A DNA stretch of 64,000 bases from assembly GCF_000384115.1 (NCBI RefSeq), contig NZ_KB913029.1, forward strand, positions 2,390,907 to 2,454,906, written 5' to 3'. Position numbers and translations under genes: made by a program. Positions 11,424 through 41,414 of the stretch are shown in pieces. Position 1 is the first letter of the stretch. Each line of letters starts with the position of its first letter. This DNA comes from Sporichthya polymorpha DSM 43042 (lineage in GTDB: Bacteria > Actinomycetota > Actinomycetes > Sporichthyales > Sporichthyaceae). Below the pieces are notes generated by a model. It worked only from the letters and a program-made list of their open reading frames with translations. It had not been told where the DNA came from and did not search any database.

Positions 11424-13061
11424 ATGACGTACCGGCTCGGCATTGACCTGGGCACGACCTTCACGGCCGCGGCCGTGCTCCGTGCGGGCGGACGCCCGGA
11501 GCCGTTGGTGCTGGGGTCGCGATCCGCCGCGGTGCCGTCGGTCGTGTTCCTCGCCCCCGACGGCAAGGTCCTGTTCGGCGAGGCCGCGGAGGACCGCGCC
11601 CCGGAGGCGCCCGAGCGCGTCGCCCGGCACTTCAAGCGCCGCATCGGCGACGAGGTCCCGCTGGTCCTCGGCGCCACCGCCGCGGACCGCGTCGAGTGCT
11701 ACGCCCACGACCTCGCCGCCGCGATTCTCGCCTGGGTCGTCGCCGTCGCCACCGCCCGCGAGGGCGAGCGCCCGGCCGAGATCGCCGTGACCCACCCCGC
11801 CTCCTGGACCCGCCGCAAGCTCGACCTCCTGCTCGGCGCCCTCGCCGCGCAGCAGCTCCCGCCGGTCACGCTGATCACCGAGCCCGAGGCGGTCGCCGTC
11901 GGCTACGCCGGTACCGGCCTGATCAGCCACCCCGCGACGCTCGCGGTCTACGACCTCGGCGGCGGCACGCTCGACGTCGCGATCCTGACGACCTCCGCCG
12001 ACGGTCGGTTCACCCGCGTCGGCGCGGCCGCCGGGCTCGACGGGCTCGGGGGCATCGACTTCGACGACGCCGTCCTCAAGCGCGTCCTCGACGCCGTCGA
12101 CGCGGCGTCCTGGGCCGGCCTCGACGGCTCCGACGTGACGCCCGAGGTCCTGCGCGCGCTCGCGAAACTGCGCGCGGCCAGCGTCGCCGCCAAGGAAACG
12201 CTGAGCAGCGAGCCGACCGCTTCCGTCTCGGTCCTGCTCGACGGCGAGACCGTGACCGTCCCGCTCGAGCGCGAGACCTTCGACGGCCTCATCGCCGACA
12301 AGATCGGTCAGTCGGTCGCCTTCTTCGTCGACGCCATCGCGTCCGCCGGCTACGGCGTCGAGGACCTGAGCGCCGTCCTCCTCACCGGCGGCTCGGTGCA
12401 GATCCCGCTCGTGACCGAGATGCTCGCCGAGGACCTGCCCGAGGGCATCACGATCCTGCGCGCGCTCGACCCCAAGGCGATGGTCGCCGCCGGGGCCGTG
12501 CTCTCGCTCGCCGCCCCGATGGCCGTCACCGCCCCCGCTCCGCGGCGCGGCGCCGACCTCGCGGTCGCCCACGCGCGAGCGTTCTTCGACTCCCAGGCCG
12601 CGTCGGCCACGATCCCGGCCGCCCGCACCGGCGGCTCGGCTCCGGTCGCCACGGCCGCCGCCGCGGTCCCCGCGGCCGCAGCGGTCGCTGCCGGCGGCCC
12701 GCCCGCGACGCCGCCGCTGATCCCGGCCGCCCCGCCGTCGCTGGACGACGCCCCGGCGCCGCAGAAGGTCCCGACCCCGCGCACGCCCGAGACGCTCCCG
12801 GACGAGACCGTCCCGATCGTCCCGGCCCCGCGTCGGCGCCTGCTCACCTGGCCCCGTGCTGCGGCCGTGGTCGTCGCCGCCGGCGTCCTCGCCGGGGGTG
12901 CGTACTACCTGACCGACGACGCGACCACGCCGCCGCCCGCGGTCACGACGCCGACGAGCGTCACCACCGACACCCCGGCGGCTGCCGACGACAAGCCCGC
13001 CAAGGCCGCGAAGCCGAAGAAGAAGCCGAAGGCCACGACCGTGTCCAACACCACGCCCTGA
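11424..13061 (+). CDS. Membrane-anchored Hsp70-like ATPase (copy 1)
   Basis: A 545-residue protein with a full Hsp70 nucleotide-binding domain: phosphate-1 DLGTTFTA at residue 8, phosphate-2 YDLGGGTLD at about 176, and adenosine motif LLTGGSVQIP at about 319. After about residue 360 there is no canonical beta-sandwich substrate domain. Instead there is a Pro/Ala-rich linker, one transmembrane helix (AAAVVVAAGVLAGGAYYL, about 478-495) and a short Thr/Pro/Lys-rich extracytoplasmic tail. So this is an Hsp70 ATPase tethered to the inner face of the membrane, not DnaK. Paralogues are at 18925 and 31120. A start ATG at 11424 follows GGGGGGAA. The partner or substrate is unknown. Confidence 0.9.
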   Translation: MTYRLGIDLGTTFTAAAVLRAGGRPEPLVLGSRSAAVPSVVFLAPDGKVLFGEAAEDRAPEAPERVARHFKRRIGDEVPLVLGATAADRVECYAHDLAAAILAWVVAVATAREGERPAEIAVTHPASWTRRKLDLLLGALAAQQLPPVTLITEPEAVAVGYAGTGLISHPATLAVYDLGGGTLDVAILTTSADGRFTRVGAAAGLDGLGGIDFDDAVLKRVLDAVDAASWAGLDGSDVTPEVLRALAKLRAASVAAKETLSSEPTASVSVLLDGETVTVPLERETFDGLIADKIGQSVAFFVDAIASAGYGVEDLSAVLLTGGSVQIPLVTEMLAEDLPEGITILRALDPKAMVAAGAVLSLAAPMAVTAPAPRRGADLAVAHARAFFDSQAASATIPAARTGGSAPVATAAAAVPAAAAVAAGGPPATPPLIPAAPPSLDDAPAPQKVPTPRTPETLPDETVPIVPAPRRRLLTWPRAAAVVVAAGVLAGGAYYLTDDATTPPPAVTTPTSVTTDTPAAADDKPAKAAKPKKKPKATTVSNTTP

Positions 13062-13166: not shown

Positions 13167-13550
13167 TCAGCGGCACGCCCGCCGCTTGCCGATGAAGAGC
13201 TGGGTCAGCACGACCAGCTTCGAGGACTTCCCCCGCACGACGAGCGTGTGCTCGCACTTGTACTTGCGCGGGATCGTGATCTTGCTCGTGAACCCGCCCT
13301 TGCGGTTGGCCTTGAAGGTCTTGAGGGTCTCGGCCTTCGAGCGGATCTTGACGACGATCTGCTCACGCGGCTTGAACTTCGCCCCCTTGATCGTGATCGT
13401 GGCGCCCCGCCCCGGGTTCGTCTTGGAGACCGTCACCGTGGGCTGTGGCGTGTAGGGGGCGGGCGCGGCCTCAGCGGGCGCGGCGCCCACCGTCCCCAGG
13501 CCGATGGCGGTCGCGGTCGCGATTGCGCAGACGCTCTTGGTCCAGTTCAT
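13167..13550 (-). CDS. Secreted Ig-like domain protein (paralogue 1, no anchor)
   Basis: A 127-residue secreted protein starting at the ATG at 13550 (MNWTKSV), which follows a G-rich ribosome site. The signal peptide ends near AEAAPAPYTP. The mature part is one beta-rich Ig-like (IPT/PKD-type) domain with NPGRGATITIKG and two cysteines, YKCEHT and RRAC, likely a disulfide. It ends in a basic tail and has no membrane anchor. It belongs to the same paralogous family as the proteins at 15639, 16416 and 17413, which share APY after cleavage, an NP..GG turn, and the Cys pair. Function is unknown; a cell-surface role is inferred. Confidence 0.75.
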   Translation of the reverse strand: MNWTKSVCAIATATAIGLGTVGAAPAEAAPAPYTPQPTVTVSKTNPGRGATITIKGAKFKPREQIVVKIRSKAETLKTFKANRKGGFTSKITIPRKYKCEHTLVVRGKSSKLVVLTQLFIGKRRACR

Positions 13551-13567
13551 GTTGTGCCCCCTCGTGG

Positions 13568-13593
13568 GGCGCACCACGGGCGCGTGGTGCGCC
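13568..13593. promoter_or_regulatory. 26-bp palindrome upstream of the Ig-like gene
   Basis: Arms GGCGCACCACG and CGTGGTGCGCC match perfectly around a 4-base centre, 17 bases upstream of the minus-strand start at 13550, in the 102-base divergent gap. It could be an operator or a 5' leader hairpin. Confidence 0.4.
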
Positions 13594-13652
13594 GGATCTG
13601 ATTAGTGCTGGACGGTAAGGCAAGATCGAAGAGCTGAGCAACGGACGTACGG

Positions 13653-15449
13653 GTGAGGCACGGGGGTCGGAAGGTGCGGAGATCGCTACGCCGGTTACGG
13701 CGGCGGCACCCGCGTCGCTGGCGTGCGTTGCAGCTGGGTGTGGTCGGCGCCGTCGTGCTCGGCGTGCTCGGTCTCGTGTGGGTCGGCGTCACCGCGATGA
13801 TGGCGCGCAGTGAGCTGAACAAGGTCCGCGCCGGCGCCCCGCAGCTGCGCGCGCAACTGCTCGCGGCCGACATCCCGTCCGCCACCGCGTCCGCAGATCT
13901 GATTGCGCGTCAGGCTACTCGGTCCCACAAACTCACGAGCGGCCCCGCGTGGGCGGTGATCAGCCGCATCCCGGTGCTCGGCGACCCGTTCGAGACGGCG
14001 CGGGGCATCACCGGGGTCGCGAACGAGCTCGGTCGCAACGCGCTGCCGGAGCTGGTCGAGGCGGGCACGACGATCGACCCGTCCGCCGTCCGCGGGGACG
14101 ACGGCCGCATCGACATCGCCGCCCTGCAGCGCGTGACTCCGGCCCTCGACTCGGCCGCCGCGTCGATCGACCGCGCCATCGCGCGCACCGAGCAGCTGCC
14201 CGCCTCGACGTACCTCCCGGTCGTCGACGACGCCCGCGTCGACCTCCTCGACGAGCTGCGTCCGTTGGCCCATATGGCTGAAGCTTCCCAGCAGGCGGCG
14301 CAGCTGCTGCCGCCGATGCTCGGCTCGGCCAAACCGCAGACCTACTTCCTCGGGTTTCAGAACAACGCCGAGGCCCGGGGGACCGGCGGCCTCCCCGGCG
14401 CGTTCGCGATCGTGAAGGCGTCGAAGGGGAAGATCGACTTCGTCGGGTTCCACAACGACGACGAGCTGAAGGGCGTCACCGCGAAGATCCGGTTCGACAC
14501 CGAGTACGAGGAGCTCTACCGCAACGCCGCCACCAAGACGCTGTTCCTCAACAGCAACCTCTCGCCCCACTTCCCCTACGCGGCCGCGATCTGGGCCGAC
14601 ATGTGGCAGCGGCACTCCGGCCAGCGCGTCGACGGCGCGGTCGCCGTCGACCCGGAGGTGCTCAGCTACCTGCTCGCGGTGACCGGCCCGGCGAAACTGC
14701 GCGACGGCACCCAGCTCACCGCCGCGAACGTCGTCGAGCTGACGCAGAGCACGGCCTACAACCGCTTCGCCGATGACAACGCGGCCCGCAAGCAGTTCCT
14801 CATCGAGATCGCCGCCGCGGCGGCCGACAAGGTCACCGGGTCGGTCGGTGACCCCGTCGCGCTCGCCCGCGCCCTGGCCCGCGCCGCCGACGAACGCCGG
14901 CTGCTCGTCTGGAGTGCGAACAAGGACCTGCAGGCGTTGATCGAGCAGACCGAGCTCTCAGGCGCCGTGCCGGTCACGGACGCGCCGTACGTCGGGCTGA
15001 CGATCATCAACGAGGGCGGGAACAAGCTCGACTACTACCTCGACCGCTCGCTGACCTGGGAGCGCGGGGCGTGCGGGGAGGACCGGCCGGTCACCGCGAC
15101 CGTCCGCCTCGCCAACACGGCCCCGGCCGGCCTCTCGCCGTACGTGACCTCGCGGTCGGACGGCCCGGACTACCCGATTCAGCCTGGCGACCACCGGGTG
15201 ACGATCTACTACGCCGCGACCTCCGGCGCCGTGCTGGAGTCGGCGACGATCGACGGCAAGGAGGTCGGCGTCTCCGCCGGCCGGGAGCGGGGGCACCCGG
15301 TGTTCATCGTCGACGTCGAGCTGCCCCGCGGGAAGCCGCGCACGGTCGTCCTTAACCTCGACGAACCCCACCGGGCCGGGGACCCGATCGTCTTCCGCCA
15401 GCCGCTGGTCCGCGACCTCGCCGTCGAGGTCCGCGACACCCCCTGCTGA
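13653..15449 (+). CDS. DUF4012 membrane-anchored extracytoplasmic protein
   Basis: A 598-residue protein with an Arg-rich N-terminus, one transmembrane helix (LGVVGAVVLGVLGLVWVGVT, about residues 28-47) and a large outside part. QNNAEARGTGGLPGAFAIV and the following core identify DUF4012, a family often found near actinobacterial polysaccharide genes and suspected to act at the cell surface. No catalytic site is recognised. The start is the GTG at 13653; a second in-frame GTG seven codons later is also possible. Confidence 0.85.
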   Translation: MRHGGRKVRRSLRRLRRRHPRRWRALQLGVVGAVVLGVLGLVWVGVTAMMARSELNKVRAGAPQLRAQLLAADIPSATASADLIARQATRSHKLTSGPAWAVISRIPVLGDPFETARGITGVANELGRNALPELVEAGTTIDPSAVRGDDGRIDIAALQRVTPALDSAAASIDRAIARTEQLPASTYLPVVDDARVDLLDELRPLAHMAEASQQAAQLLPPMLGSAKPQTYFLGFQNNAEARGTGGLPGAFAIVKASKGKIDFVGFHNDDELKGVTAKIRFDTEYEELYRNAATKTLFLNSNLSPHFPYAAAIWADMWQRHSGQRVDGAVAVDPEVLSYLLAVTGPAKLRDGTQLTAANVVELTQSTAYNRFADDNAARKQFLIEIAAAAADKVTGSVGDPVALARALARAADERRLLVWSANKDLQALIEQTELSGAVPVTDAPYVGLTIINEGGNKLDYYLDRSLTWERGACGEDRPVTATVRLANTAPAGLSPYVTSRSDGPDYPIQPGDHRVTIYYAATSGAVLESATIDGKEVGVSAGRERGHPVFIVDVELPRGKPRTVVLNLDEPHRAGDPIVFRQPLVRDLAVEVRDTPC

Positions 15450-15457
15450 CCCCCCAC

Positions 15458-15512
15458 TGGAGATGACATCTCCACCGGGATCGGCCCCTTTCCACTGGAG
15501 ATGTCATCTCCA
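15458..15512. repeat. Pair of 17-bp perfect palindromes
   Basis: TGGAGATGACATCTCCA (15458-15474) and TGGAGATGTCATCTCCA (15496-15512) differ only at the central base and lie 38 bases apart, between the convergent DUF4012 and Ig-like genes. They may act as termination or protein-binding elements. Confidence 0.6.
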
Positions 15513-15551
15513 AAGAAACGGGTTCACGTTTCCGGCTCCGGACGCGCCGAG

Positions 15552-15588
15552 ACCCCCTCCGCCGGGAGATCGTCCCGACGGAGGGGGT
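15552..15588. terminator. Bidirectional terminator hairpin
   Basis: Arms ACCCCCTCCG and CGGAGGGGGT are perfect complements around a 17-base loop between convergent genes. It sits just before the stop of the Ig-like gene at 15639. Confidence 0.6.
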
Positions 15589-15638
15589 GGCTGTAGCGGC
15601 AGCCGGCGCAGGCCTGACGGCGGGTCAGGCCCGCGGGC

Positions 15639-16178
15639 TCAGTAGTGGTACGACTTGCGACGCCGGGCGAGGAAGCCCGCACCGGCGACGACGGCCAGGC
15701 CGGCGGCCGCCGCGGTCGCGACGGCGGGGGAGGAGTTGCCCGACCCCGTCGTCGGGGTGGCGAGCATCGTCGGCTGGAGGGTCCGCTCGGTCGCGGTCCG
15801 CTCACCGCAGAGGTTGAGGCCACCGATGAGGAGGCTCGACGTCGCCACCGAGCCGGAGTTGCGCCCCGTCGCGGTGAGCGTCTGCTCGCACAGCGCGCTC
15901 TTCGGAAGCTTGATGACGCCGGTGGCCGTGCCGTCCGAGTTCGCCGTCAGGGTTCCGAGCGGGAGATCCACGCCGGAGAGGGTGATGTCGATGAGCTCGC
16001 CGGTCTCGAAGTTGAGAACCGTGATGGTGATCGTCCCGCCGAGAATCGGGTTGAACAGACTGATCTGAAGCAGTGCATCCGGCGTGTACGGCGCAGCCGT
16101 CGCCGGGGCCGCCGCCGGGATCGCGAGCGCGGTGGCGCTGCACACCCCGGCGAGAACGGCGCGTGTGGTCGTGCGCAT
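15639..16178 (-). CDS. Secreted Ig-like domain protein (paralogue 2, C-terminal membrane helix)
   Basis: A 179-residue protein. The signal peptide ends at ATAAPYTP, followed by an Ig-like domain with an NPILGGTITITV turn and cysteines at LCEQT and NLCGE, then a Thr/Ser-rich linker, a hydrophobic helix (ATAAAAGLAVVAGAGFLA) and a basic end RRRKSYHY. The layout resembles a sortase substrate, but the pre-helix sequence TPTTGSG is not a canonical LPXTG, so retention by the helix and basic tail is the safer reading. The ATG at 16178 is the start. Confidence 0.72.
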   Translation of the reverse strand: MRTTTRAVLAGVCSATALAIPAAAPATAAPYTPDALLQISLFNPILGGTITITVLNFETGELIDITLSGVDLPLGTLTANSDGTATGVIKLPKSALCEQTLTATGRNSGSVATSSLLIGGLNLCGERTATERTLQPTMLATPTTGSGNSSPAVATAAAAGLAVVAGAGFLARRRKSYHY

Positions 16179-16362
16179 GGCGGAATGCCCCTTCGCAATG
16201 GGCCCGCGTTGTCCGGCTTGGCCCCCGTGCGGCGGACGTTAGTGAGGTCCGCAGTACGCGCGCGTTTCGTGATGCTCTGCCGGACGCGACGACTTGGCCC
16301 CCTTCGTGCGGAAATGTCCGAGTTGTCCAGCCACTTCCGGGCCACAACCCGTGATCGAAAGA

Positions 16363-16380
16363 TCACCGAATCGGACCAAC
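16363..16380 (+). promoter_or_regulatory. Shared upstream motif, copy 2
   Basis: TCACCGAATCGGACCAAC matches copy 1 at 14 of 18 positions. It lies in the 237-base gap 16179-16415 upstream of the minus-strand gene at 16178, but in the opposite orientation, which weakens it. Nothing else is seen in this gap. Confidence 0.25.
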
Positions 16381-16415
16381 CCGCTTTTGTCGCCCGCGCC
16401 GAATCTGTCGGGGCG

Positions 16416-17048
16416 TCAGGCTCTGCGGCGTCCCCGCGTGCAGAGGAACCCGACGCCGCCGGTGACGGTCAGGCCGAGCAGCAGGGCCGCCGCGACCTGG
16501 CCGGGGGCGTCGCCGGTCAGCGTCGCGCTGTGGGCCACGTTGCCCCACCCGGTGCTGTCGTCCCCTACGTTGCCGTCGCCCGTGTTGTTGCTGCCGACGT
16601 TCCCGTTGCCGGTGTTGTTCTCGCCGATGTTCCCGGAGCCCGTGTTGCCGGAGCCGAGGTTGCCGCCCGAGCCCGAGTCGCACGCGTCCCGGCCGCCGAT
16701 GACGATCTGCGTGGTCGCGACGAACCCCGACGTCGTGCCGGTCGCGACGACCTCGTGCAGGCAGCGCGCCGACGGCGGCAGCTGGACGCGCTTGGTGGCC
16801 TCGCCGTCGTCGTCGGTCGTGACCGAGCCGAGCGCGACCGGGTCGGAGTGCAGCTCCAGTTCGACGAGCTCGAGCGGCGCGAACCCGAACAGGTCGAGCC
16901 GCAGGATCCCGCCGACGGACGGGTTGTACGGGCCGGCCGCGACCTCGGGCTCGTCGGTGTAGGGGGCGGCCGCTGCGGTCGCGGCGCCGGTCAGGGTCAG
17001 GGTCGCCGCGGCCACGAGGGCGGCGAACGCGGAGCGCGTCGGTGACAC
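16416..17048 (-). CDS. Secreted Ig-like domain protein with MPTR-like NxGxGN repeat stalk (paralogue 3)
   Basis: A 210-residue protein with a signal peptide ending at AAAAPYTDEP and an Ig-like domain with an NPSVGGILRLDL turn and cysteines at ARCLHE and DACDS. About 45 residues of GSGNTGSGNIGENNTGNG-type repeats follow, then a terminal hydrophobic helix and RGRRRA. The repeats resemble the NxGxGNxG motif of mycobacterial PPE-MPTR proteins, although there is no PPE domain. A GTG start at 17048 follows a strong GAGGGAGG. The repeat probably forms a stalk holding the Ig domain away from the membrane (inference). Confidence 0.75.
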   Translation of the reverse strand: MSPTRSAFAALVAAATLTLTGAATAAAAPYTDEPEVAAGPYNPSVGGILRLDLFGFAPLELVELELHSDPVALGSVTTDDDGEATKRVQLPPSARCLHEVVATGTTSGFVATTQIVIGGRDACDSGSGGNLGSGNTGSGNIGENNTGNGNVGSNNTGDGNVGDDSTGWGNVAHSATLTGDAPGQVAAALLLGLTVTGGVGFLCTRGRRRA

Positions 17049-17220
17049 GGGGCCTCCCTCGGGGGCTCAGGGCTGCGAGGTCCGCTTTGCCCGGGTGCCG
17101 CGGGACGCTAGTTGATCAGGGGGACGCCTGTGACTGCGGCGCTGTCCGGGTGTGTCCCGGTATGACCGGTTTCGACGCGTGTGGTGAGCGATGGGGCATC
17201 CGGCGGTCTGCGTCCGGAAA

Positions 17221-17238
17221 TCACCGGAATGGCCGAAT
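17221..17238 (+). promoter_or_regulatory. Shared upstream motif, copy 3
   Basis: TCACCGGAATGGCCGAAT lies 174 bases upstream of the LPXTG gene, same orientation, inside the 364-base divergent gap 17049-17412. A TAGGTT hexamer at 17374 could be a -10 element; an identical hexamer occurs in front of the IniB gene at 33501. No gene is seen in the gap. Confidence 0.32.
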
Positions 17239-17412
17239 CATCGCGCCTGCTGCTGACGGGTCGTCAGGAGTTTTGGGAGGCGACGGGCGATTCGTCCGGA
17301 GCGCCTCGTCAAGATCACGTAATCGGGGCCCGCAAGATCTCAGATTCCCCGGACGCGCGCCGATCTCGGCCCTTAGGTTGCTTCGCAGGGGAGAAACCGG
17401 GGAGGACTTGTC

Positions 17413-17925
17413 ATGTCTGTTTCACTGCGCGGAGCCGCTGTGCTGGCGCCCGCCGTCGCGGCCGGCGCGCTGCTGTTCGGAGCGACCGCCGCCACCGCGG
17501 CGCCGTACCTCGACGAGCCCGTCGCCTCCGCCAGTGACACCAACCCCGAGGTCGGCGGTTCGGTCACGCTGAACCTCGACGGCTACGAGCCGCTCGAGCA
17601 GATCGGCGTCGACGTGCACTCCAAGGTCGTCCGCGTCGCGACCGTCCGCGCCGACGCGCAGGGCGCCGCGACCGTCACGGTCCGGATGCCCGCCGGCTTC
17701 ACCTGCGAGCACTACATCGAGTCCACCGGGCTCACCAGTGGCCTGGTGACCCGGGTGAACATCGTCATCGGCGACCCGGCCGATTGCCGCGACGCCGACG
17801 CTCCCGGCGAGGACGACGGCACCGACCTCCCGAAGACCGGTGCCGCGGTCGGTGGCCTCGCCGCCGCCGGCGCTTTCCTGACCCTCGGCGGTGTCGCCCT
17901 GGTCCGTCGCCGCCGCTCCTCCTGA
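17413..17925 (+). CDS. LPXTG-anchored surface protein with Ig-like domain (paralogue 4)
   Basis: A 170-residue sortase substrate. The signal peptide ends at ATAAPYLDEP, the Ig-like domain has an NPEVGGSVTLNLDG turn and cysteines FTCEHY and ADCRD, and a short acidic linker leads to LPKTG, a hydrophobic helix and RRRRSS. Sortase would cleave at T-G and attach it to the peptidoglycan. No sortase gene is in this window. It is the only member of the local four-paralogue family with a canonical sorting signal. The ATG at 17413 follows GGGGAGGA. Confidence 0.88.
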   Translation: MSVSLRGAAVLAPAVAAGALLFGATAATAAPYLDEPVASASDTNPEVGGSVTLNLDGYEPLEQIGVDVHSKVVRVATVRADAQGAATVTVRMPAGFTCEHYIESTGLTSGLVTRVNIVIGDPADCRDADAPGEDDGTDLPKTGAAVGGLAAAGAFLTLGGVALVRRRRSS

Positions 17926-17951: not shown

Positions 17952-17995
17952 ACGTCAGCGGGACCGAGCGCTATAGCGCCCGGTCCCGCTGACGT
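17952..17995. repeat. 44-bp palindromic repeat, copy A
   Basis: ACGTCAGCGGGACCGAGCGC opens a 44-bp near-perfect palindrome centred on CTATAG, 26 bases after the LPXTG gene stop. Copies of the same length are at 25845 and 26885. The outer ACGTCAGCG/CGCTGACGT and the inner GCGCTATAGCG are invariant. It may act as a terminator or be a dispersed REP-like element. Confidence 0.8.
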
Positions 17996-18924: not shown

Positions 18925-20583
18925 TTACTTCGCCGCGCGCGGGGCGGAGGCGACCTTCAGATCCTTCACCGGCTTGTCGGTGATGGCCGGGGTCGCGGGG
19001 TTCCACGCCGTCGCGCCGACGAAGATCGCGGCGGTCAGGACCGTCAGCGCCATCGAGCGGCGGACGCTCACCAGCGAGCGCCACGTCCAGCTCGCCTGCA
19101 GGGCCTCGAGCTCGACGTCGTCGACGGCGGAGAACAGCTGGTCCTCCAGCGCCGGTCGCGGCGGGGGCAGCGTCTCCGCGGCGCGGATCGGGGCGGGGGC
19201 GTCCTCGACGAGGAGCGCCTCGACCGACCGGACCGCCCGGGCCGGGATCACCGCCGGACGCGGAGCGATGGGGGTCGCGACCGCGATCCCCTCCAGCCCG
19301 ACCACCTCGGGGCGACGGGCACCCCGGCGGGGACGGATCGGCTTGCTGCTCGGGCCACTCGGGGCCGGGAGCGGGAGCGCCGGAGCCACGGGCGCCTCGG
19401 CCACGGGCGCCTCGGCGACCGGGGCGGCCTTGATCTTCCGGGCGGTCTTCACGACCTGCTTCGCGGCGGCGAGCACTGGGGCCGGCGCGGCGGCCGGGGT
19501 CTCGCCGAGCGCGAGGACCGCACCCGCGGCGATCGCGGTGGCGGGGGTGGCCCCACCGGCGCGGACGACCGGGCGCTGGAACTGACGCGAGACCAGCTGG
19601 GTCACGAACGGGATCCGGGCCGAGCCGCCGATTGTCAGCACCGCGGCGAGGTCCGCGGCCGCGACGCCGGCGTTCTCCAGCACCGAGTCGAGCACGTCGA
19701 CGGTCGTCTCGAGCGGCCCGGCGATCAGGCCCTCGAGCTCGGACCGGGTCAGGCGCACCGAGCCGGCGATGCCGGGCAGGGCGACCTTCACGGTCACGGC
19801 GGTCTCGGTCGACAACTTCTCCTTGGCCGCGACGCACGAGGCGCGCAGCGCGGACAGGGCGGCGCCGGTCGCGGCGTCCTCGGCGTCGAGGGCGGCGAAG
19901 GCAGCCTGCTGATCCGGCGTCAGACCGGAGACGACGTGCGCGAGGACGAGGTCGTCGAAGTCCGCGCCGCCGAAGTCGGCGAGCTCGGCCGGCCGGCCGA
20001 GGACGGACCAGGTCTGCCCCGCCGCGTCGAGCTGGACGACCGCCGCGTCGAACGTGCGGCCGCCGAGGTCGTAGATCGCGAGCTTCGTGCCGGGCTCGTA
20101 GGCCGCGTCCTGCGCACCGAGCGCAGCGGCGGCGACGGGCTCGGCGACGAGCGTCGCGTTGGCGACGCCGGCCTCGGCGAGGGCGGCGGCGAAGAGCTCA
20201 CGCTTGTGCGGGCCCCAGGTCGCGGGGTGCGTGACGGCGACGGCGTCGGGCGCACGGCCCTCCTGCACGCTCGCCTGGTCGACGACCCACGCGACGAGCT
20301 CCGCGGCCACGCGGTGCGCGGCCGAGGCCGCCCCGACGGCCGGGATCATCGGCGTCTCGTCGCCGATCCGGCGCACGAAGCCGCGCAGGACGCGATCGGC
20401 CTCCGCCGTCGCGACATCCGCCACGGCGTGGCCGTAAAGCCGGGCCCCGTCCGTGCCGATGTAGACCACGGACGGCACCACCGCGGAGTCGGCGCCGAGC
20501 GAGGAGCCGCCGGCTCCACCGTCGCGCGCGATCGTCGCGGCTGTGTATGACGTGCCCAGGTCCACGCCCAGTCGGTAACCCAC
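18925..20583 (-). CDS. Membrane-anchored Hsp70-like ATPase (copy 2, variant phosphate-2 loop)
   Basis: A 552-residue Hsp70-type ATPase domain with phosphate-1 DLGTSYTA at residue 8 and adenosine motif TIGGSARIP at about 318. In the phosphate-2 loop the usual DLGGGTFD reads DLGGRTFD (about 172), placing Arg where a glycine normally contacts the phosphate, so ATPase activity may be reduced or altered. After about residue 360 comes a Pro/Ala-rich linker with a basic patch (RPRRGARR), a transmembrane helix (MALTVLTAAIFVGATAW, about 511-527) and a 25-residue tail. No substrate-binding sandwich is present. It is divergent from the giant IniB gene across a 537-base gap. Confidence 0.88.
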   Translation of the reverse strand: MGYRLGVDLGTSYTAATIARDGGAGGSSLGADSAVVPSVVYIGTDGARLYGHAVADVATAEADRVLRGFVRRIGDETPMIPAVGAASAAHRVAAELVAWVVDQASVQEGRAPDAVAVTHPATWGPHKRELFAAALAEAGVANATLVAEPVAAAALGAQDAAYEPGTKLAIYDLGGRTFDAAVVQLDAAGQTWSVLGRPAELADFGGADFDDLVLAHVVSGLTPDQQAAFAALDAEDAATGAALSALRASCVAAKEKLSTETAVTVKVALPGIAGSVRLTRSELEGLIAGPLETTVDVLDSVLENAGVAAADLAAVLTIGGSARIPFVTQLVSRQFQRPVVRAGGATPATAIAAGAVLALGETPAAAPAPVLAAAKQVVKTARKIKAAPVAEAPVAEAPVAPALPLPAPSGPSSKPIRPRRGARRPEVVGLEGIAVATPIAPRPAVIPARAVRSVEALLVEDAPAPIRAAETLPPPRPALEDQLFSAVDDVELEALQASWTWRSLVSVRRSMALTVLTAAIFVGATAWNPATPAITDKPVKDLKVASAPRAAK

Positions 20584-33327: not shown

Positions 33328-33390
33328 CCCCCAACGCGGGGGTGCGGACCAAGATCGCAATCCCCCAATCCGGTGATCGTGATTTGGGGG
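33328..33390. promoter_or_regulatory. CCCCC/GGGGG inverted repeats before iniB
   Basis: CCCCCAACGCGGGGG (33328-33342) and CCCCCAATC ... GATTTGGGGG (33362-33390) lie upstream of the IniB gene at 33501. The second resembles the element at 20958 before the giant IniB gene. A TAGGTT hexamer at 33424 may be the -10 box. Confidence 0.4.
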
Positions 33391-33500
33391 TTTTCCCCGA
33401 TCCGTCCGATTCGCCCGACTGCCTAGGTTCGGCACCACAGCGGCTCCGGTGCGGGGCCCCGAGCCCACCACTCGGACGAATCTGACGAAGGGTCACCCCA

Positions 33501-34202
33501 ATGGCTACCTCCCTGCTCGACTGGATCATGGACCTGATGCGGGACGGCGGCGCCCGCGAGGCGTTCAACACGAACCCGCAGCTCTCGATGGCGTCCGCCG
33601 GCTTCACCAACGTGTGCGGCGCGGACGTGGCGGACTCCCGCGCGTTCCTCTTCGACAACCCCTCGATCCGCGAGGTCGGCGGCGTCGACCGCCCGGCGAC
33701 CGACGACGCGGACGCGGCGGAGCAGATCCGCTACATCATCAACAACTACACGATCGAGCAGCCCGCCGCGGCCGGCAGCAACGTCACCGGCCCCACCACG
33801 ATCGTCGACACCCCGGGCCCGAACGACGTCGACGACCAGGACACCGTCGTCGACGGCGACGGGAACACCGTCAGCAGCAACCAGGCGAACACCACCGACC
33901 AGACCTCGTCGGACGACGACACGGTCGAGGACTCCAGCACCAACACCGACAGCGACGCCGACAACGTCGTCAACGGTGACAACTCGGCCGGTGAGAACCA
34001 GATCGCCGGTGGCATCGACGACCTCGGCGAGGGCCTGTCGGGCGACGACAACACGAACATCATCACCCTGGCCGACGTGGTCGACATCGAGGAGTCGCCG
34101 ATCCTCAACGAGAGCCTGAACCGGCTCGTCGACGACAGCCTGAACGAGGTCGCCTACAACGCCCTTCAGGACGCGGACAACCTGATCAGCATTCTCGGCT
34201 GA
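33501..34202 (+). CDS. iniB: IniB-like protein, first of a tandem pair
   Basis: A 233-residue protein. Residues 1-85 form the IniB N-terminal domain (LLDWIMDLMRDGGAREAFNT, MASAGFTNVCG, ending YIINNYTIEQ). The rest is an Asp/Asn/Ser/Thr-rich low-complexity region (DTVVDGDGNTVSSNQ) and a conserved acidic C-terminal part (LADVVDIEESPILNESLNRL). It has no signal peptide. It is shorter than mycobacterial IniB and lacks the Gly/Ala repeats. It is the first gene of the iniB-iniB-iniA-iniC run. The ATG at 33501 follows GAAGGG. Confidence 0.85.
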   Translation: MATSLLDWIMDLMRDGGAREAFNTNPQLSMASAGFTNVCGADVADSRAFLFDNPSIREVGGVDRPATDDADAAEQIRYIINNYTIEQPAAAGSNVTGPTTIVDTPGPNDVDDQDTVVDGDGNTVSSNQANTTDQTSSDDDTVEDSSTNTDSDADNVVNGDNSAGENQIAGGIDDLGEGLSGDDNTNIITLADVVDIEESPILNESLNRLVDDSLNEVAYNALQDADNLISILG

Positions 34203-34251: not shown

Positions 34252-34947
34252 ATGGCCATCACCCTGCTCGACTGGATCGCCAACCTGATGCGTGACGCCG
34301 GCGCCCGCGAGGCGTTCGCCGCGCAGCCGCAGCTCGCCATGGCGTCCGCCGGCTTCACGCAGTCCTGCGGCTCCGGGGAGGTCTCGCCGGCGTTCGTCCC
34401 GGCCGACACCAGCTTCCGCGAGGTCCAGGGCGTCTCGCTCCCGGACAGCGACGTCGAGAGCGCGGACCGCGTGGAGTACGTCATCAACAACTACACGATC
34501 GAGGCGGCGGACGTCGCCGGCTCGAACGTCACCGGCCCGACGTCGATCGTCGACAGCCCCGGCCCGAACGACGTCGAGGACCAGGACACCGTCGTCGACG
34601 GCGACGGGAACACCGTCAGCAGCAACCAGGAGAACACGACCGACCAGAGCTCCTCGGACGACGACACCACGACCGACTCGAGCACCAACACCGACAGCGA
34701 CGCGGACAACGTCGTGACCGGGGACAACTCGGCCGGCGGCAACCAGATCGCGGGCGGCATCGAGGACGTCGGCGAGGGCATGTCGGGCAGCGACAACCTC
34801 AACGTCATCACGCTGGCGGACGTGGTCGACATCGAGGAGTCGCCGATCCTCAACGAGAGCCTGAACCGGCTCGTCGACGACAGCCTCAACCAGGTCGGCT
34901 ACAACCTGCTCGATGACGCCGACGACCTGATCAGCATCCTGGGCTGA
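34252..34947 (+). CDS. iniB: IniB-like protein, second of a tandem pair
   Basis: A 231-residue close paralogue of the preceding gene, 49 bases downstream with the same GGAAGGGTCAC leader. The N-terminal domain (LLDWIANLMRDAGAREAFAA, VINNYTIEAA) has diverged, whereas the acidic central and C-terminal parts are almost identical, with exact DNA identity over stretches of about 50-70 bases. This indicates recent duplication or gene conversion. A hairpin at 35041 follows it, so iniA may be expressed at a lower level. Confidence 0.85.
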   Translation: MAITLLDWIANLMRDAGAREAFAAQPQLAMASAGFTQSCGSGEVSPAFVPADTSFREVQGVSLPDSDVESADRVEYVINNYTIEAADVAGSNVTGPTSIVDSPGPNDVEDQDTVVDGDGNTVSSNQENTTDQSSSDDDTTTDSSTNTDSDADNVVTGDNSAGGNQIAGGIEDVGEGMSGSDNLNVITLADVVDIEESPILNESLNRLVDDSLNQVGYNLLDDADDLISILG

Positions 34948-35071: not shown

Positions 35072-35157
35072 GCTGCCTGTGCGGACCGGGTTGCGGACTT
35101 ACCGTGGCTCAGGGCGCCTGTGGGGGCGGTCGCGAACACCAGGGTCAGGAGAGGTAC

Positions 35158-37002
35158 GTGCCGGCACCCGAAGCGGTGATCCAGACGGTCGACGAGGCGC
35201 TGCGCATGGTCACTGCGCGCGGCCGCACCGACCTCGCGGCACGTCTGCGCAAGACCAAGGACCGCCTCCACGACGACCGCGTGCGGGTCCTGGTGATCGG
35301 GGAGTTCAAGCAGGGGAAGTCCCAGCTGGTGAACGCCCTGGTCCGGGCACGCGTCTGCCCCGTCGACGACGACATCGCCACCTCCGTCCCGACCGCCGTG
35401 TACTACTCCGAGAACCCGGTCGTGACGCTGGTGAAGGAGGAGCCGGGCGCGGATCCCGACGACGAGTCACGTCCGGTTCGCACGGAACGCACCGAGGCGA
35501 GCCTGGAGGACATCCAGCGCTTCGTGACCGAGATGGGCAACCCCGCGAACCGTGAGGGGCTCAGCCACGTCGAGGTCGGCCTGCCCACGCCGTTGCTCCA
35601 ATCGGGTCTTGAGCTCGTGGACACTCCGGGCGTCGGTGGCCTCGGGTCCGTCCGTGCCACCGCGACCCTCGCCGCGCTGCCCGGCGCCGACGCCGTCCTC
35701 CTCGTTTCTGACGCCGCGCAGGAGTACACCGCCGCCGAGCTCGAGTTCCTCAAGCACGCGGTGAAGCTGTGTCCGAACATCGCCTGCATCCTGACGAAGA
35801 TCGACCTCTACCCCGAGTGGCGGCGCATCTACGAGCTGAACCAGGCGCACCTGACCCAGGCGGGCATCACGGCCCAGCTGATCCCCGTCTCGTCCGTGCT
35901 GCGCTGGCACGCGCTCGACCGCAACGACAACGACCTCAACATCGAGTCCGGCTTCCCGGTGCTCGCGACGATGCTGACGAACACCGTCGGCCAGGCCGAG
36001 CTGCTGGTGCGGCGCGCGGTCGCGAACACCGTCGCTGGTGTGGCCGAGCAGCTGGCGCGGGGGCTGCAGTCCGAGCTCGGGGTGCAGGAGCACCCGGAGA
36101 CGGTGCAGTCGACGGTCACCGACCTGCGCGCGGCCAAGGAACGCATGGCCGCCCTGCGCGACCGCTCCGCGCGGTGGCAGCAGACGCTGTCGGACGGCGT
36201 CGCGGACCTCGCCGCCGACATCGACTACGACCTCCGCGACCGCATGCGCGACATCCAGCGCAACGCCGAGGAGGAGATCGACGTCCTCGGCGACCCCGCC
36301 GTCGTGTGGGTCGAGTTCGCCCCGTGGGTCGAGGAGCAGGTCGCGGGCGCGACGTCGGCGAACTTCGTCTGGGCGAACGAGCGCGCGCGGTACCTGGCCG
36401 CGCTGGTCGCCGAGCACTTCGCGGAGGACGGTCAGCTCTCGCTGCCTGACCTCGACGTCGACGCCGGCGGGTCGATGCAGGCCGTCCGTCCGATGTACCT
36501 GAACGACGAGGGCGACCCGGGCCTCGGCGAGCAGGCGCTGATCGCCGTCCGCGGCGGTTACATCGGGACGCTCATGTTCGGCATGTTCTCCACCTTCGCG
36601 GGGATGGCTCTGCTGAACCCGTTCTCGGTCGGCGCCGGTCTCCTCCTCGGTGGACGTACCCTGCGGGAGGAGAAGAAGCGCTTGCTGCAGCGCCGTCAGG
36701 CGGAGGCGAAGAACGCTGTGCGTCGTTACACCGACGATGTGACCTTCCACGTCGGGAAGGACTCGCGCGACATGCTGCGCCGGGTCCAGCGTCAGCTGCG
36801 CGACCACTTCACGCAGGTAGCTACGGAGCTGGAGACGTCGCTGCAGGACTCGCTGAAAGTCGCCGAGGCCGGCGCCCGCACCAACGCCAAGGACCGCGAG
36901 GCCCGGATCGGGGAGCTCAAGCGCGAGCTCGCCGGAGTCGCCGCGCTGCAGAAGCAGGCTCGCGACCTCGTCGCCGTCGCCGCGAAGGCGGGTGCGGTGT
37001 GA
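35158..37002 (+). CDS. iniA: IniA-like dynamin-family GTPase
   Basis: A 614-residue dynamin-like GTPase. I chose the GTG at 35158 because AGGAG lies about seven bases upstream; the length then fits mycobacterial IniA (640 residues). GTPase motifs are G1 GEFKQGKS (48-55), G3 DTPG (about 155) and G4 TKID (about 213). A long helical stalk follows, and a hydrophobic hairpin (YIGTLMFGMFSTFAGMALL with VGAGLLLGG, about 467-500) could insert in the membrane. IniA in mycobacteria remodels membranes and is induced by cell-wall inhibitors. It overlaps iniC by 4 bases, so equal synthesis of both partners is likely. Confidence 0.92.
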   Translation: MPAPEAVIQTVDEALRMVTARGRTDLAARLRKTKDRLHDDRVRVLVIGEFKQGKSQLVNALVRARVCPVDDDIATSVPTAVYYSENPVVTLVKEEPGADPDDESRPVRTERTEASLEDIQRFVTEMGNPANREGLSHVEVGLPTPLLQSGLELVDTPGVGGLGSVRATATLAALPGADAVLLVSDAAQEYTAAELEFLKHAVKLCPNIACILTKIDLYPEWRRIYELNQAHLTQAGITAQLIPVSSVLRWHALDRNDNDLNIESGFPVLATMLTNTVGQAELLVRRAVANTVAGVAEQLARGLQSELGVQEHPETVQSTVTDLRAAKERMAALRDRSARWQQTLSDGVADLAADIDYDLRDRMRDIQRNAEEEIDVLGDPAVVWVEFAPWVEEQVAGATSANFVWANERARYLAALVAEHFAEDGQLSLPDLDVDAGGSMQAVRPMYLNDEGDPGLGEQALIAVRGGYIGTLMFGMFSTFAGMALLNPFSVGAGLLLGGRTLREEKKRLLQRRQAEAKNAVRRYTDDVTFHVGKDSRDMLRRVQRQLRDHFTQVATELETSLQDSLKVAEAGARTNAKDREARIGELKRELAGVAALQKQARDLVAVAAKAGAV

Positions 37003-38705
37003 TCCTTCGCCGCAAGAACAAGAAGGGCGCGGCGGAAACGGACGAGACGGCGACCTCCGCCGTCCCCGCCCAGTCCGCCCCGGGCTCCGGCCCGATGCCC
37101 GGCACCGCTCCGCTGGAGCCGCCGGCTCCGGCCCCGGCTCCGGTTGAAGCGCCGGCGGCGCCGGTCGCTCCGTCCGCCCCGGTCGCCCGAGAGACGCCGG
37201 TCCCCGCGGCCCGGTCACGGATCACGCCGGCGTCGACGGACATCTGCGACCAGGTCCGGGCGGTGCTGCAGCAGGCCGCGGAGGTCTACGCCGACCACCC
37301 CGAGGAGGCGGAGCGGATCGAGGCCCACCTCGACCGGCTCGACTCCCCGGTCCGGATCGCGATCGCCGGCAAGGTGAAGGCGGGCAAGTCGACACTGCTG
37401 AACGCGCTCGTCGGCGAGATCATCGCGCCGACCGACGCGGGGGAGTGCACCCGCATCGTCACCTGGTACCGCAACGCTCAGGCGCCGCGGATCGTGATGC
37501 GGCGCAAGGACGGCGACGCGGCGGACCTCCCGATCGTCCGGCAGAACGGGAAGCTCGAGCTCGACCTGCTCGGCGCGGCGCCCGAGGACGTCGACCGCCT
37601 CACCGTCGACTGGCCCTCCGGCGACCTCGCGACGATGACGCTGATCGACACCCCGGGTATCGCGTCGGCGTCGGCGGAGGTGTCCGCGCGGACCGAGGCG
37701 CTGCTGACCCCGGACGAGGAGCAGGGCGCCGCCGACGCGATCGTCTACCTGATGCGCCACGTGCACGCCGACGACGTCGGGTTCCTCGAGGCCTTCCACG
37801 CCCACGCGGCGATCGGGTCGTCACCGGTGAACACCGTCGCGGTGCTCTCCCGGGCGGACGAGATCGGCGCCGGCCGCGTCGACGCGCTGCAGTCCGCGCG
37901 CGCGATCGCGTCCCGGCTGCGTGGCGAGGAGAAGATCCGGTCGCTGTGTCAGACCGTCGTCCCCGTCGCGGGTCTGCTGGCCGAGACCGGTCGGACGCTC
38001 CGTCAGTCGGAGTTCAACGCGCTCGCGAAGATCGCCGCCGCGGACCGTGAGTTCGTCGACGGGATGCTGCTCTCCGCCGACCGCTTCGCGCGCGAGCTGC
38101 CCGAGGGGTCGCCGGACCTACCCTCGGCCGAGGTGCGCCGCCGGCTGCTCGAGCGGTTCGGGCTCTTCGGCGTCCGGCTCGCACTGCCGCTGATCCGACA
38201 GGGCATCACGGACTCGACCGCGCTGTCGGCCGAGCTCGTCCGCCGCTCCGGGCTGGAGGAGCTGCGCGAGGCCCTGACCGCACTGTTCACCGAGCGCGGC
38301 GACCTGCTGAAGGCGCGGTCGGCGCTGATGGCGCTGGACTCGATCCTGCGTTCCACGCCGCTGCCTGAGTCGGAGATGCTCTTCGCGCAGGTCGAGAAGA
38401 TCTCCTCCGGTGCGCACGAGTTCGTCGAGCTCGGGCTGCTGGGGTCGCTGCGCACCGGCGCCGTCGTCCTCCCCGCCGACCAGCGCGCCGAGGCCGAGCG
38501 CCTCCTCGGCGGGACCGGTCAGGCCCAGTTCGTCCGCCTCGGCCTCCCGCCCGAGGCGACCCCCGACGAGATCCGCGACGCCGCCACCGACGCGATGGGC
38601 CGCTGGCGCCGCCGCGCCGAGAACCCCGCCTCGACCCGCCCCGTCGCCGACGCCGCCCGCGTCATCGTCCGCACCTGCGAAGGCATCATCGCCTCGCTCC
38701 CCTGA
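36999..38705 (+). CDS. iniC: IniC-like dynamin-family GTPase
   Basis: A 568-residue second dynamin-like GTPase that starts at GTG within the iniA stop (GTGA overlap). The first 75 residues are a Pro/Ala-rich extension not expected in the shorter mycobacterial IniC (about 490 residues). G1 is GKVKAGKS (about 124), G3 is DTPGIAS (about 217) and G4 is probably SRADEIG. No hydrophobic hairpin like that of IniA is evident, so IniC may work as a soluble partner of IniA (inference). A perfect hairpin at 38719 ends the operon. Confidence 0.9.
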   Translation: MILRRKNKKGAAETDETATSAVPAQSAPGSGPMPGTAPLEPPAPAPAPVEAPAAPVAPSAPVARETPVPAARSRITPASTDICDQVRAVLQQAAEVYADHPEEAERIEAHLDRLDSPVRIAIAGKVKAGKSTLLNALVGEIIAPTDAGECTRIVTWYRNAQAPRIVMRRKDGDAADLPIVRQNGKLELDLLGAAPEDVDRLTVDWPSGDLATMTLIDTPGIASASAEVSARTEALLTPDEEQGAADAIVYLMRHVHADDVGFLEAFHAHAAIGSSPVNTVAVLSRADEIGAGRVDALQSARAIASRLRGEEKIRSLCQTVVPVAGLLAETGRTLRQSEFNALAKIAAADREFVDGMLLSADRFARELPEGSPDLPSAEVRRRLLERFGLFGVRLALPLIRQGITDSTALSAELVRRSGLEELREALTALFTERGDLLKARSALMALDSILRSTPLPESEMLFAQVEKISSGAHEFVELGLLGSLRTGAVVLPADQRAEAERLLGGTGQAQFVRLGLPPEATPDEIRDAATDAMGRWRRRAENPASTRPVADAARVIVRTCEGIIASLP

Positions 38706-38753: not shown

Positions 38754-41414
38754 TTAGGCGTCGTTGTCGAGGGCGGCGCGGAGCTGGGAGAACAGCTCGC
38801 CGCGGCTGCCGGCGCCGAGGCGCTGACGCATGCGGGCGACGTGGTGCTCGACGGTCTTCGCGGAGATGAACAGCCGCTCGCCGATCTCCTTGTACGTCAG
38901 GCCGGTGACGAGAAGAGCGGCGACCTCGCGCTCGCGCTCGGAGAGGCTGACCCCGCTCGACGACGAGGACGACGGGGCCGGCGCCGAGTCCGCGGGACGC
39001 GTCGGGGACGGGAAGGCCGGAGTCTCGGCGGGGAGGTCCAGGCCCGCGGTCTCGGCGGAGACCGAACCCCCGGCGGCCGGACGCAGCGAACGGGCGACGC
39101 TCATCAGCGCCGACATCATCTGGCGGTCACCGGTGCGGACGGCGGCCTGGCCGGCGAGGCGGGAGGCGTCCCACGCGTGGCCGATCGAGTGCAGACGCCG
39201 CGCCGCGGCCTCGACCTCGGTGGCGTCGACCTGACCCGCCATCACGCGCAGCCAGGACCGCGCCGCCGCGGCGAGGACCGCCGCCTGCGGGTAGGTGGGT
39301 GCCGCGGCTTCGAGTACAGCAATATGTGACTCAGCGTCAGCCGGACGGTCCGCCAGAGAAGCGGCCTGGACGGCGTACCAGTGCATCGGGGTCGCCCACA
39401 GCGCGGGCTGGCCGAGGCGGTCGAGCAGCGCCCACGCCTCGGACAGGTGCGGACGGATCCAGCTCTCCTCCTGCAGCCGCGCGGCGGCGACGGCGAGCTC
39501 GCCGACCGCGTGCAGCGCGAACAGGTCGACGGGGTGCCGGACGATCGCCTGGCGGGCCCGCTGCCACGCGGTGTTCAGCGCGCCGAGGTCGCCCTCGCGT
39601 CGGGCGAGCCCGACCTCGATGGCGGCGGCGGTCAGTTCCTCGCGGGGCTCGAGTGCGCCACCACCCGGGCCGGCGGAGCCGACGAGGGCGCGGGCGGTCT
39701 CGAGGTCGCCGCGCTGCATCGCGGTCCAGGCCTGCAGCAGCCGGTAGCGCGACATCGCAGGCTCGCCACCGAGGCGGGACGCCACCGCGCGGGTCAGCAC
39801 CGACTCGGCGACGTCGAACTCCCCGCAGTTCAGCGCGACGATCGCGGCGAGCGCGGCGGGGGTGTCGGGCATCAGGGTCCGCTCGGCGGCGGGTTCGAGC
39901 AGCATCGCGGCGCGGGCGAGGAGCGAGAGCGCGAGGCTCGGCGTCCCCGTCACGCTCTCCAGCACGCCCTCGGCGAGCAGCGTCTCGACGCCGTCGGACA
40001 GCGTCGGCGCCGGCAGCAGGCCGTGCTCCAGCGCGGCGCGCGCGCCGGGCAGGTCGCCGACGCCGAGCAGCGCCGGCACCGCGAGCACGGGCGGCTCGCC
40101 GGTCGTGTTGGCCCACCAGCGGTAGAGCTGCGCGGTTCGGCTGAGCATGCCGCGCGTCGCGAGGACGGTCGCAGCGACCGCGACGGCAACGTCCCGGTCG
40201 GGCGCGTTCGCGTCGGAGATCGCGATGTCGGCCAGGCGCAGCGCGGTGTTCAGGTCGCCGACGAGCGCGCTCGCGCGGCCCAGCTTCGCGGCGACGGAGG
40301 CGATCGGGGTTCCCGCCTGCACGGCGGCGGCGTAGAGCTTGACGGCCTCGGTCGGCGTCGGAGCCTCCGCGGCGCCGGCGGCGAGCACGGCCCCGACCTC
40401 GGGCCCGGTCATCCCTGCCCCCGCGAGCGCGCGGGCGTGCTCGAGCATCGAGCCGCCGCGCCGGTGGACGGCGGCGACCCAACCGGTCCGCATCGCCTGG
40501 ATGCGCATCGGCGGCGCGAGGGTGAGCAGCGCGTGCCGGGCCAGCGGCAGCAGCGCGCCGGTCTCGGTGAGCAGGCCGCTCGCGCGCGCCACCTCGGCGG
40601 CGTGCTCGACGGACGCGGGCTCGGAGTTCAGGACGTCGGCCAGCAGTTGCGGGTTCAGCTCCGCCCCGACGGCGAGCGCGAGCAGCAGGCTCAGCGGCTC
40701 CGGCCCGAGGGCGCTCAGGTCCAGGCGCAGCAGTTCGAGGACGCTCGTCGGGATCTTCGCCGGCGCCCAGCCCGCGTGCCCCGGCCCGTCGGGCACGAGC
40801 CCGGCGGCGCACAGCGCAGAGGCGAGGGCGTCGACCAGCTTCGGCGTCCCGGCGGTCTGCTCGTGGACGAACGCGGCGAGCGCGGCGCTGCCCGAGCCGG
40901 AGCACAGGCCCTCGACGCGCGCCGTCACCTCGGCCCGCGAGAGCCGGCCGAGCACGATCGGCGCCCGCTGGCGGCCGAGGGCCGCGGCGAGGGCGTCCAC
41001 GTTCGGGAGGTCCGGACCCGGCCGCGTCGCGACGACGATCCGCTGCCGGCCCGCCTCGACCATCCGGCGCAGGTCGAGAAGGACCTCGTCGGGCAGGTTG
41101 CGGGCGTCGTCGATGAGGAGGACGGCGTCCTCCGGCGGCGGCCAGGCCGACGCGTCGCGGTGGACCGTCACGCCGGCGGCGGAGTAGATCGAGGCCAGCG
41201 CGTCGAGCATCGCCGTCTTGCCGGTGCCCCCGCGCCCGACGATGACGCCGACCAGCGGCCCGGACGGGTCGGCCGCGGCGTCCGCGCAGAGCGCGACGGC
41301 GGCGTGCGAGCCCGAGAACGTCGAGTTCGGGTTCCGCGGGGCCGTGAGGCCGGACGCGGAGCCGCGCGAACCGGGACCGGGAACCCGGGCCGATTGAGCG
41401 CTGGCCTGCACCAC
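38754..41414 (-). CDS. iniR: IniR-like large LuxR-family ATPase regulator
   Basis: An 886-residue regulator. The frame is open much further upstream, but it would overlap the divergent PH-domain gene; the GTG at 41414 has GGGGGC upstream and precedes the ATPase directly. Walker A is VGRGGTGKTAM (about 57-67) and Walker B is AVLLIDDARNL. A long helical TPR-like sensor region follows, and a LuxR helix-turn-helix is at the C-terminus (LSEREREVAALLVTGLTYKE, then ISAKTVEHHVARMRQRLGA). Mycobacterial IniR (about 830 residues, next to iniBAC) has the same design and controls iniBAC. Synteny with iniA/iniC supports orthology; the signal sensed here is unknown. Confidence 0.87.
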   Translation of the reverse strand: MVQASAQSARVPGPGSRGSASGLTAPRNPNSTFSGSHAAVALCADAAADPSGPLVGVIVGRGGTGKTAMLDALASIYSAAGVTVHRDASAWPPPEDAVLLIDDARNLPDEVLLDLRRMVEAGRQRIVVATRPGPDLPNVDALAAALGRQRAPIVLGRLSRAEVTARVEGLCSGSGSAALAAFVHEQTAGTPKLVDALASALCAAGLVPDGPGHAGWAPAKIPTSVLELLRLDLSALGPEPLSLLLALAVGAELNPQLLADVLNSEPASVEHAAEVARASGLLTETGALLPLARHALLTLAPPMRIQAMRTGWVAAVHRRGGSMLEHARALAGAGMTGPEVGAVLAAGAAEAPTPTEAVKLYAAAVQAGTPIASVAAKLGRASALVGDLNTALRLADIAISDANAPDRDVAVAVAATVLATRGMLSRTAQLYRWWANTTGEPPVLAVPALLGVGDLPGARAALEHGLLPAPTLSDGVETLLAEGVLESVTGTPSLALSLLARAAMLLEPAAERTLMPDTPAALAAIVALNCGEFDVAESVLTRAVASRLGGEPAMSRYRLLQAWTAMQRGDLETARALVGSAGPGGGALEPREELTAAAIEVGLARREGDLGALNTAWQRARQAIVRHPVDLFALHAVGELAVAAARLQEESWIRPHLSEAWALLDRLGQPALWATPMHWYAVQAASLADRPADAESHIAVLEAAAPTYPQAAVLAAAARSWLRVMAGQVDATEVEAAARRLHSIGHAWDASRLAGQAAVRTGDRQMMSALMSVARSLRPAAGGSVSAETAGLDLPAETPAFPSPTRPADSAPAPSSSSSSGVSLSEREREVAALLVTGLTYKEIGERLFISAKTVEHHVARMRQRLGAGSRGELFSQLRAALDNDA

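Follow-up and report, generated by a model that had tools for sequence, protein, structure and literature searches.

An Hsp70-domain protein is a constant partner of the actinobacterial iniBAC locus, and the 64,000-nucleotide stretch of Sporichthya DNA analysed here (the window; positions 2390907-2454906 of a 5.5-Mb genome, family Sporichthyaceae, f1 in our numbering) probably carries an expanded form of this envelope-stress locus, with a conserved actinobacterial core, duplicated Hsp70 genes and a second box-bearing Hsp70/IniB unit. The iniBAC genes are the signature cell-wall-drug response of mycobacteria. The core module would consist of the regulator IniR, an Hsp70 ATPase that is anchored in the membrane and lacks a substrate-binding domain, acidic IniB proteins poor in Lys and Arg, and the dynamin pair IniA/IniC. 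In Sporichthyaceae the Hsp70 gene was probably duplicated, and the second divergent unit, Hsp70B plus a giant IniB, carries the operator-like box of the first. The named genes were checked by open reading frame, codon-position and profile evidence and are listed below.

11424-13061, + strand: Hsp70A, Hsp70 ATPase domain plus membrane helix, motifs intact, paralogue (Pfam HSP70, 122 bits)
13167-13577, - strand: surface-protein paralogue 1
15639-16178, - strand: surface-protein paralogue 2
16416-17048, - strand: surface-protein paralogue 3
17413-17925, + strand: surface-protein paralogue 4
18925-20583, - strand: Hsp70B, Hsp70 ATPase domain plus membrane helix, K70->V and GGGT->GGRT (Pfam HSP70, 113 bits)
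21121-25767, + strand: giant IniB-domain protein, ATG at 21121, 1,548 aa, pI 4 (NF038175 IniB_NTERM, 41.6 bits, cut-off 40)
27091-28803, + strand: rep27, Lys/Arg-poor acidic repeat protein with no IniB domain and no box, membership unsure
29272-30990, + strand: rep29, Lys/Arg-poor acidic repeat protein, by composition and repeats
31120-33075, - strand: Hsp70C, Hsp70 ATPase domain with intact catalytic motifs, membrane helix and acidic outer tail (Pfam HSP70, 153 bits)
33501-34202, + strand: IniB1 (NF038175, 50.9 bits, cut-off 40)
34252-34947, + strand: IniB2 (NF038175, 35.1 bits, below cut-off 40)
35104-37002, + strand: IniA, dynamin-like GTPase matching M. smegmatis IniA 6j72; true start probably ~60 bases downstream
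36999-38705, + strand: IniC, dynamin-like GTPase (Dynamin_N, 43.9 bits), with a 4-base overlap with iniA
38754-41414, - strand: IniR-like ATPase/LuxR regulator, convergent with iniC (NF038181); the frame is open to 42065, with homology from ~41303

The gene content read in the original prediction was confirmed throughout. Besides IniA, IniC, a pair of short IniBs and an IniR-like regulator, the region encodes three membrane-tethered Hsp70-like ATPases, each with a hydrophobic helix, a 1,548-residue IniB-type protein, two further basic-poor repeat proteins and four paralogous surface proteins; IniB2 and the IniR-like protein score below their cut-offs. A profile search found three IniB domains in the whole genome, all inside the window. 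The genome also has four non-DnaK Hsp70 places, of which three lie there.

The linkage of Hsp70 to IniB was analysed in two samples of genomes. Among 297 genomes of the class, 28 had an IniB domain above the cut-off, and a second sample of 395 genomes, searched with an IniA query, added 12 IniB-bearing loci, giving 40 loci from 8 families and 12 genera, Mycobacterium-type genomes included. The f4/g5 genomes are read as Mycobacterium-type because two IniAs from this group give full-length alignments to M. smegmatis IniA 6j72 (~1,000 bits). The locus DNA (1.43 Mb) was fetched and annotated with profiles built for the analysis. An Hsp70-domain gene was found no more than 4,360 bases from IniB in all 40 loci, divergent from IniB in 26, on the same strand in 9 and convergent in 5. 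IniR was also present in 39 of these loci, the remaining one lying at a contig end. In 37 of the 40 linked Hsp70s, the ATPase domain is followed by a helix that is hydrophobic (mean hydropathy of 1.4 or more). The Hsp70s had been predicted to be additions to iniBAC, a view that the general linkage does not support; the outcome named beforehand as refuting the proposal, with these genes far from iniAC in relatives, did not turn up for Hsp70.

About half of the 40 loci are of Mycobacterium type, and the counts are therefore not independent events. That the genes are linked in all families, and in more than one order, would not be expected by chance, since only ~3 such Hsp70s occur per 5 Mb; a rough estimate puts chance proximity near 1% per genome. 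In genome G274 the genes follow one another on a single strand in the order Hsp70-IniR-IniB-IniA-IniC, with gaps of 2, 3, 89 and -4 bases, and G258 and G374 have a similar operon. The position of Hsp70 is not invariant, because three Mycobacterium-type genomes (G070, G283, G319) have no divergent Hsp70 and carry one behind iniC instead. The constancy of the Hsp70 partner suggests that work in strains without the divergent gene may miss a component. The open-licence literature yielded no description of Hsp70 as a constant iniBAC partner or of the box described below, and a single remark on the Hsp70 link was found in print, on M. smegmatis.

In Hsp70A, Hsp70B and Hsp70C, the Pfam PF00012 match is confined to positions 2-370 of 599, the ATPase half, and none of these proteins matches the substrate-binding domain (profile positions 370-599). 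The ATPase domain is followed by a low-complexity linker, a hydrophobic helix and a tail rich in Pro/Ser/Thr or in acidic residues. Hsp70A and Hsp70C share with DnaK/Hsp70 chaperones an ATPase domain bearing the phosphate and adenosine motifs of DnaK, whereas the membrane helix, the outer tail and the missing substrate-binding domain set the window proteins apart from them. The DnaK catalytic residues (K70, E171, DLGGGT) are present in Hsp70A and Hsp70C and absent from Hsp70B, the ATPase of which is probably impaired. The IniB-adjacent Hsp70s of Mycobacterium-type genomes (G045, G166, G235, G251, G007 and other f4/g5 genomes) show SIG.T, K70->V, E171->D and GGSG, so that the phosphate-binding Asp, K70 and GGGT are gone; these proteins are probable pseudo-ATPases, degenerate where the window Hsp70s are mostly intact. 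In the tree, Hsp70A, Hsp70B, Hsp70C and one paralogue from G001 form a single family clade with support 98/99, the bootstrap not being fully settled and the inner forks unsettled, and Hsp70B clusters with other iniBAC Hsp70s of the family. Hsp70A and Hsp70B are therefore probably duplications within the family, that is, family-level paralogues of Hsp70C, which itself is the counterpart of the conserved iniBAC Hsp70.

The best solved structure for the window IniA is M. smegmatis IniA 6j72 (E 2.6e-128, residues 25-610), a protein that causes membrane fission (PMC6715688). IniA of a Sporichthya MAG is 90% identical to that of the window. The IniR-like protein matches NF038181 over its whole length at 446.7 bits (E 1.8e-133), below the curated equivalog cut-off of 750. 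In M. tuberculosis, IniR binds directly upstream of iniBAC (PMC5760070). The arrangement of the locus had been called mycobacterial in style, which is correct only in part: in the window and in four family relatives, IniR is convergent behind iniC and not beside the Hsp70 gene and the IniB promoter as in mycobacteria. Compared with the Mycobacterium iniBAC/IniR locus (Rv0339c-Rv0343; PMC5760070, PMC6715688), the window has the same IniB-domain proteins, tandem IniB genes, IniA/IniC dynamin pair and IniR-type ATPase/LuxR protein, and differs in its three anchored Hsp70s, its 1,548-aa IniB, the place of IniR behind iniC and a second Hsp70/IniB unit that is likewise divergent and carries the box of the first.

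The giant IniB contains 8 Arg and no Lys, and its longest run without either is 1,424 residues, suggesting that proteins of this kind are nearly invisible to trypsin-based proteomics. The two other repeat proteins, of 570 and 572 aa, contain 4 and 2 K/R, respectively, and the median K/R fraction of the IniB set beyond residue 110 is 0.0046. The Lys/Arg-poor sequence of the window repeats at DNA periods of 45, 48, 51 and 75 bases. The head of IniB, a small helical domain (pLDDT 73 in AlphaFold), weakly matches by profile the leader of SonA, a borosin precursor (7lts; E 0.0011); this leader is LigA-like, and 8 of 51 IniB members match Pfam LigA at E<0.1. A fold search with the AlphaFold model of the head gave nothing significant, SonA ranking first and taking the top three matches at E 2.5. 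The SonA leader and the IniB head are alike as helical domains of ~35 residues, but the core repeats are unrelated. Because the head is unlike a signal peptide, yet Rv0341/IniB is reported in the mycobacterial cell wall (PMC7350357), the cellular side of IniB is ambiguous. Nor is a giant IniB peculiar to this genome: the M. marinum iniB gene measures 3,000 bp (Boot et al. 2017, PMC5760070) and IniB proteins of ~830-995 aa occur in several sampled genomes.

A DNA element that emerged from reading two divergent regions, and then from word counts over 65 IniB upstream regions, has the consensus CCCC(T/C)AA(T/C) and is here called the ini-box. Its sites in the window are as follows.

20955-21002, no strand: cluster between Hsp70B and the giant IniB, CCCCCTAATC...GATTGGGGGG...CCCCTAAG
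29032-29046, + strand: degenerate box CATCTCCCTAATGAC upstream of rep29, found with the matrix; intact in the related genome G004
33324-33393, no strand: cluster between Hsp70C and IniB1, CCCCCAA(C/T) twice as direct repeats and GATTTGGGGG inverted

The palindrome CCCCC(N)AATC...GATT(N)GGGGG is common to both divergent regions and has only two sites in the 5.5 Mb, at window positions 20.96 kb and 33.3 kb (reversed control, 0), with the pattern partly defined from these two sites and the matrix trained outside the family. The paired box is likewise found in the Sporichthya genome at two places only, Hsp70B/giant-IniB and Hsp70C/IniB1 (reversed control, 1 match), and these two units therefore probably form one regulon, likely that of IniR. 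CCCCTAA was present in 53 of the 65 IniB upstream regions. With both strands counted, CCCC(T/C)AA was present in 59, its density there being 3.45 per kb compared to 0.127 per kb over all fetched loci; the copies are typically tandem, with a spacing of 15 or 8 bases. Of the 100 sites that match the strict word CCCCTAA(T/C) in the 1.43 Mb, 84 precede IniB. At a matrix score of at least 14, the fetched loci contained 93 sites: 80 before IniB, 2 before an IniB of G007 whose start had been set too early, 9 before linked Hsp70s, 2 before Lys/Arg-poor genes and none elsewhere. The IniB sites overlap the training set of the matrix; the Hsp70, Lys/Arg-poor and absent sites do not. In a held-out test the box preceded all 5 unlinked IniB genes and none of the 15 unlinked Hsp70s. 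Unlinked IniB genes of Mycobacterium-type genomes (L095-L099) have the box, three of them encoding proteins of 907-977 aa, and the iniBAC regulons of these genomes appear to exceed one locus.

The matrix scan of the window found no ini-box before Hsp70A, rep27, DUF4012, the phospholipase-like gene, the four surface proteins or the exopolysaccharide genes, and the membership of Hsp70A, DUF4012 and the surface proteins is therefore unsupported. The Lys/Arg-poor rep29 probably joins the Hsp70B/giant-IniB unit. Part of the proposal that the region forms one single machine thus stands, namely an Hsp70-iniBAC system in which the giant-IniB/Hsp70B unit shares the operator-like element; that the machine takes in everything in the 22 kb is unsupported. 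A box at 2814-2828 (- strand; score 19.2) lies inside an FkbM-like methyltransferase gene and was taken as chance. The published HpoR site, CAGACN7TGTCTG, differs from the ini-box. A one-mismatch word comparison of all intergenic regions did not pick up the ini-box and brought up mostly a recurring palindrome with no relation to the genes, and exact inverted repeats upstream of IniB were mainly intergenic hairpins with no common operator. The text of PMC5760070 gives a ChIP peak for IniR, and no motif was found in it. The CCCCTAAT repeats are a candidate IniR-bound element, the tie between IniR and the box being one of co-occurrence.

We favour one regulon, probably IniR's, whose members would be the IniB proteins, the IniA/IniC pair and the linked Hsp70. 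In Sporichthya, where a second Hsp70/IniB unit would have joined it, IniR would bind the ini-box and induce all units on envelope stress. More tentatively, IniA/IniC would remodel the stressed membrane, and the strongly negative IniB repeats could assemble into a matrix or coat there or at the wall. The anchored Hsp70 may switch in a nucleotide-dependent way, docking IniB, perhaps by its helical head, and loading or releasing it, and the outer tail might tie this putative physical complex to the wall. In Mycobacterium-type genomes, the catalytically degenerate Hsp70 would serve as a scaffold. By analogy only, the eukaryotic clathrin-Hsc70-dynamin cycle likewise joins a dynamin GTPase, an Hsp70 ATPase and a repetitive, possibly assembling protein, but no homology of IniB to coat proteins was found and the Hsp70 here lacks a substrate-binding domain. 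It seems unlikely that IniB loci encode a membrane-remodelling machine general to actinobacteria, in which the anchored Hsp70 loads and unloads an acidic IniB coat almost free of Lys and Arg for the dynamin pair within an IniR/ini-box regulon, and which would parallel in principle the trio of coat, Hsc70 and dynamin. The constant Hsp70 partner and the nearly off-target-free box make the role of IniB, the DNA site of IniR and the parts list directly testable.

Alternatively, Hsp70, IniB and the dynamin pair could have separate envelope functions and share a stress promoter region without forming one complex, a reading that we find rather doubtful. The shared intergenic region of a divergent pair can alone preserve linkage, and IniA/IniC pairs without IniB and without a nearby Hsp70 exist (G212, G159, G277, G050, G067); other pairs without IniB do have an adjacent Hsp70 (G016, G048, G081, G084, G285, G062, G141 and Actinomycetospora L012). 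However, the linkage to IniB is kept in more than one gene order and orientation, single operons and Hsp70 genes preceded by their own boxes among them, and the box is absent from unlinked Hsp70s of the same genomes.

The four secreted or surface paralogues (13167-17925) flank DUF4012 and have APY...NP...G motifs in common; at their C-termini, one has a clear LPKTG anchor, one a weak sorting-type match, one a merely hydrophobic end and one none of these. DUF4012 keeps near an exopolysaccharide-type cluster; in the window both lie near iniBAC, and in G001 and G002 DUF4012 does so too. This proximity, together with the repetitive, acidic nature of IniB-type proteins and the reported wall location of IniB (PMC7350357), would fit a machine in which all 30 kb, surface proteins, DUF4012 and exopolysaccharide genes included, build one extracellular layer with the giant IniB as structural polymer. 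We consider this quite improbable: the surface, DUF4012 and exopolysaccharide genes have no ini-box, and outside the genus most added genes (Hsp70A, rep27, the phospholipase-like gene and the surface proteins), DUF4012 excepted, are not kept beside iniBAC. The association of DUF4012 and the four surface proteins with iniBAC is thus, beyond their being neighbours, unsupported. A phage- or stress-triggered membrane defence, in which the dynamin pair and ATPase guard the membrane as does B. subtilis DynA, which protects against phage (PMC8844932), is very unlikely even though distant IniA/IniC-like pairs of other families adjoin several Hsp70-domain genes, since IniR and the specific box connect the IniB loci with the known mycobacterial regulon for cell-wall stress and no typical defence neighbours were noticed around them in the loci annotated here.

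Several further observations were made in the window and in the sampled genomes. A predicted secreted protein at 45519-46199 has a stretch like collagen-like adhesins (weak NCBIfam matches). Near-perfect palindromes around GAGCGCTATAGCGC occur at 17952-17995, 25827-25906 and 26881-26932, all intergenic, with arms of 22-40 nt and ends ACGTCAGCG...CGCTGACGT; the genome has ~8 such places, 3 of them in the window, and the element is possibly a small mobile palindrome or a terminator. In Actinomycetospora (L012, 4684-17655), a LuxR-type ATPase, a low-complexity protein, IniA, IniC, a Lys/Arg-poor protein and Hsp70 are encoded on one strand, with no recognisable IniB head in this interval. In genus g28 (L061, L068, L069, L070), a second IniA homologue with no IniC or adjacent Hsp70 adjoins a conserved gene for a protein of 670-708 aa. 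In families f15 and f32 (L077, L078, L079, L080, L081, L082), distant IniA/IniC-like pairs without IniB lie beside Hsp70-domain genes and may represent a different system.
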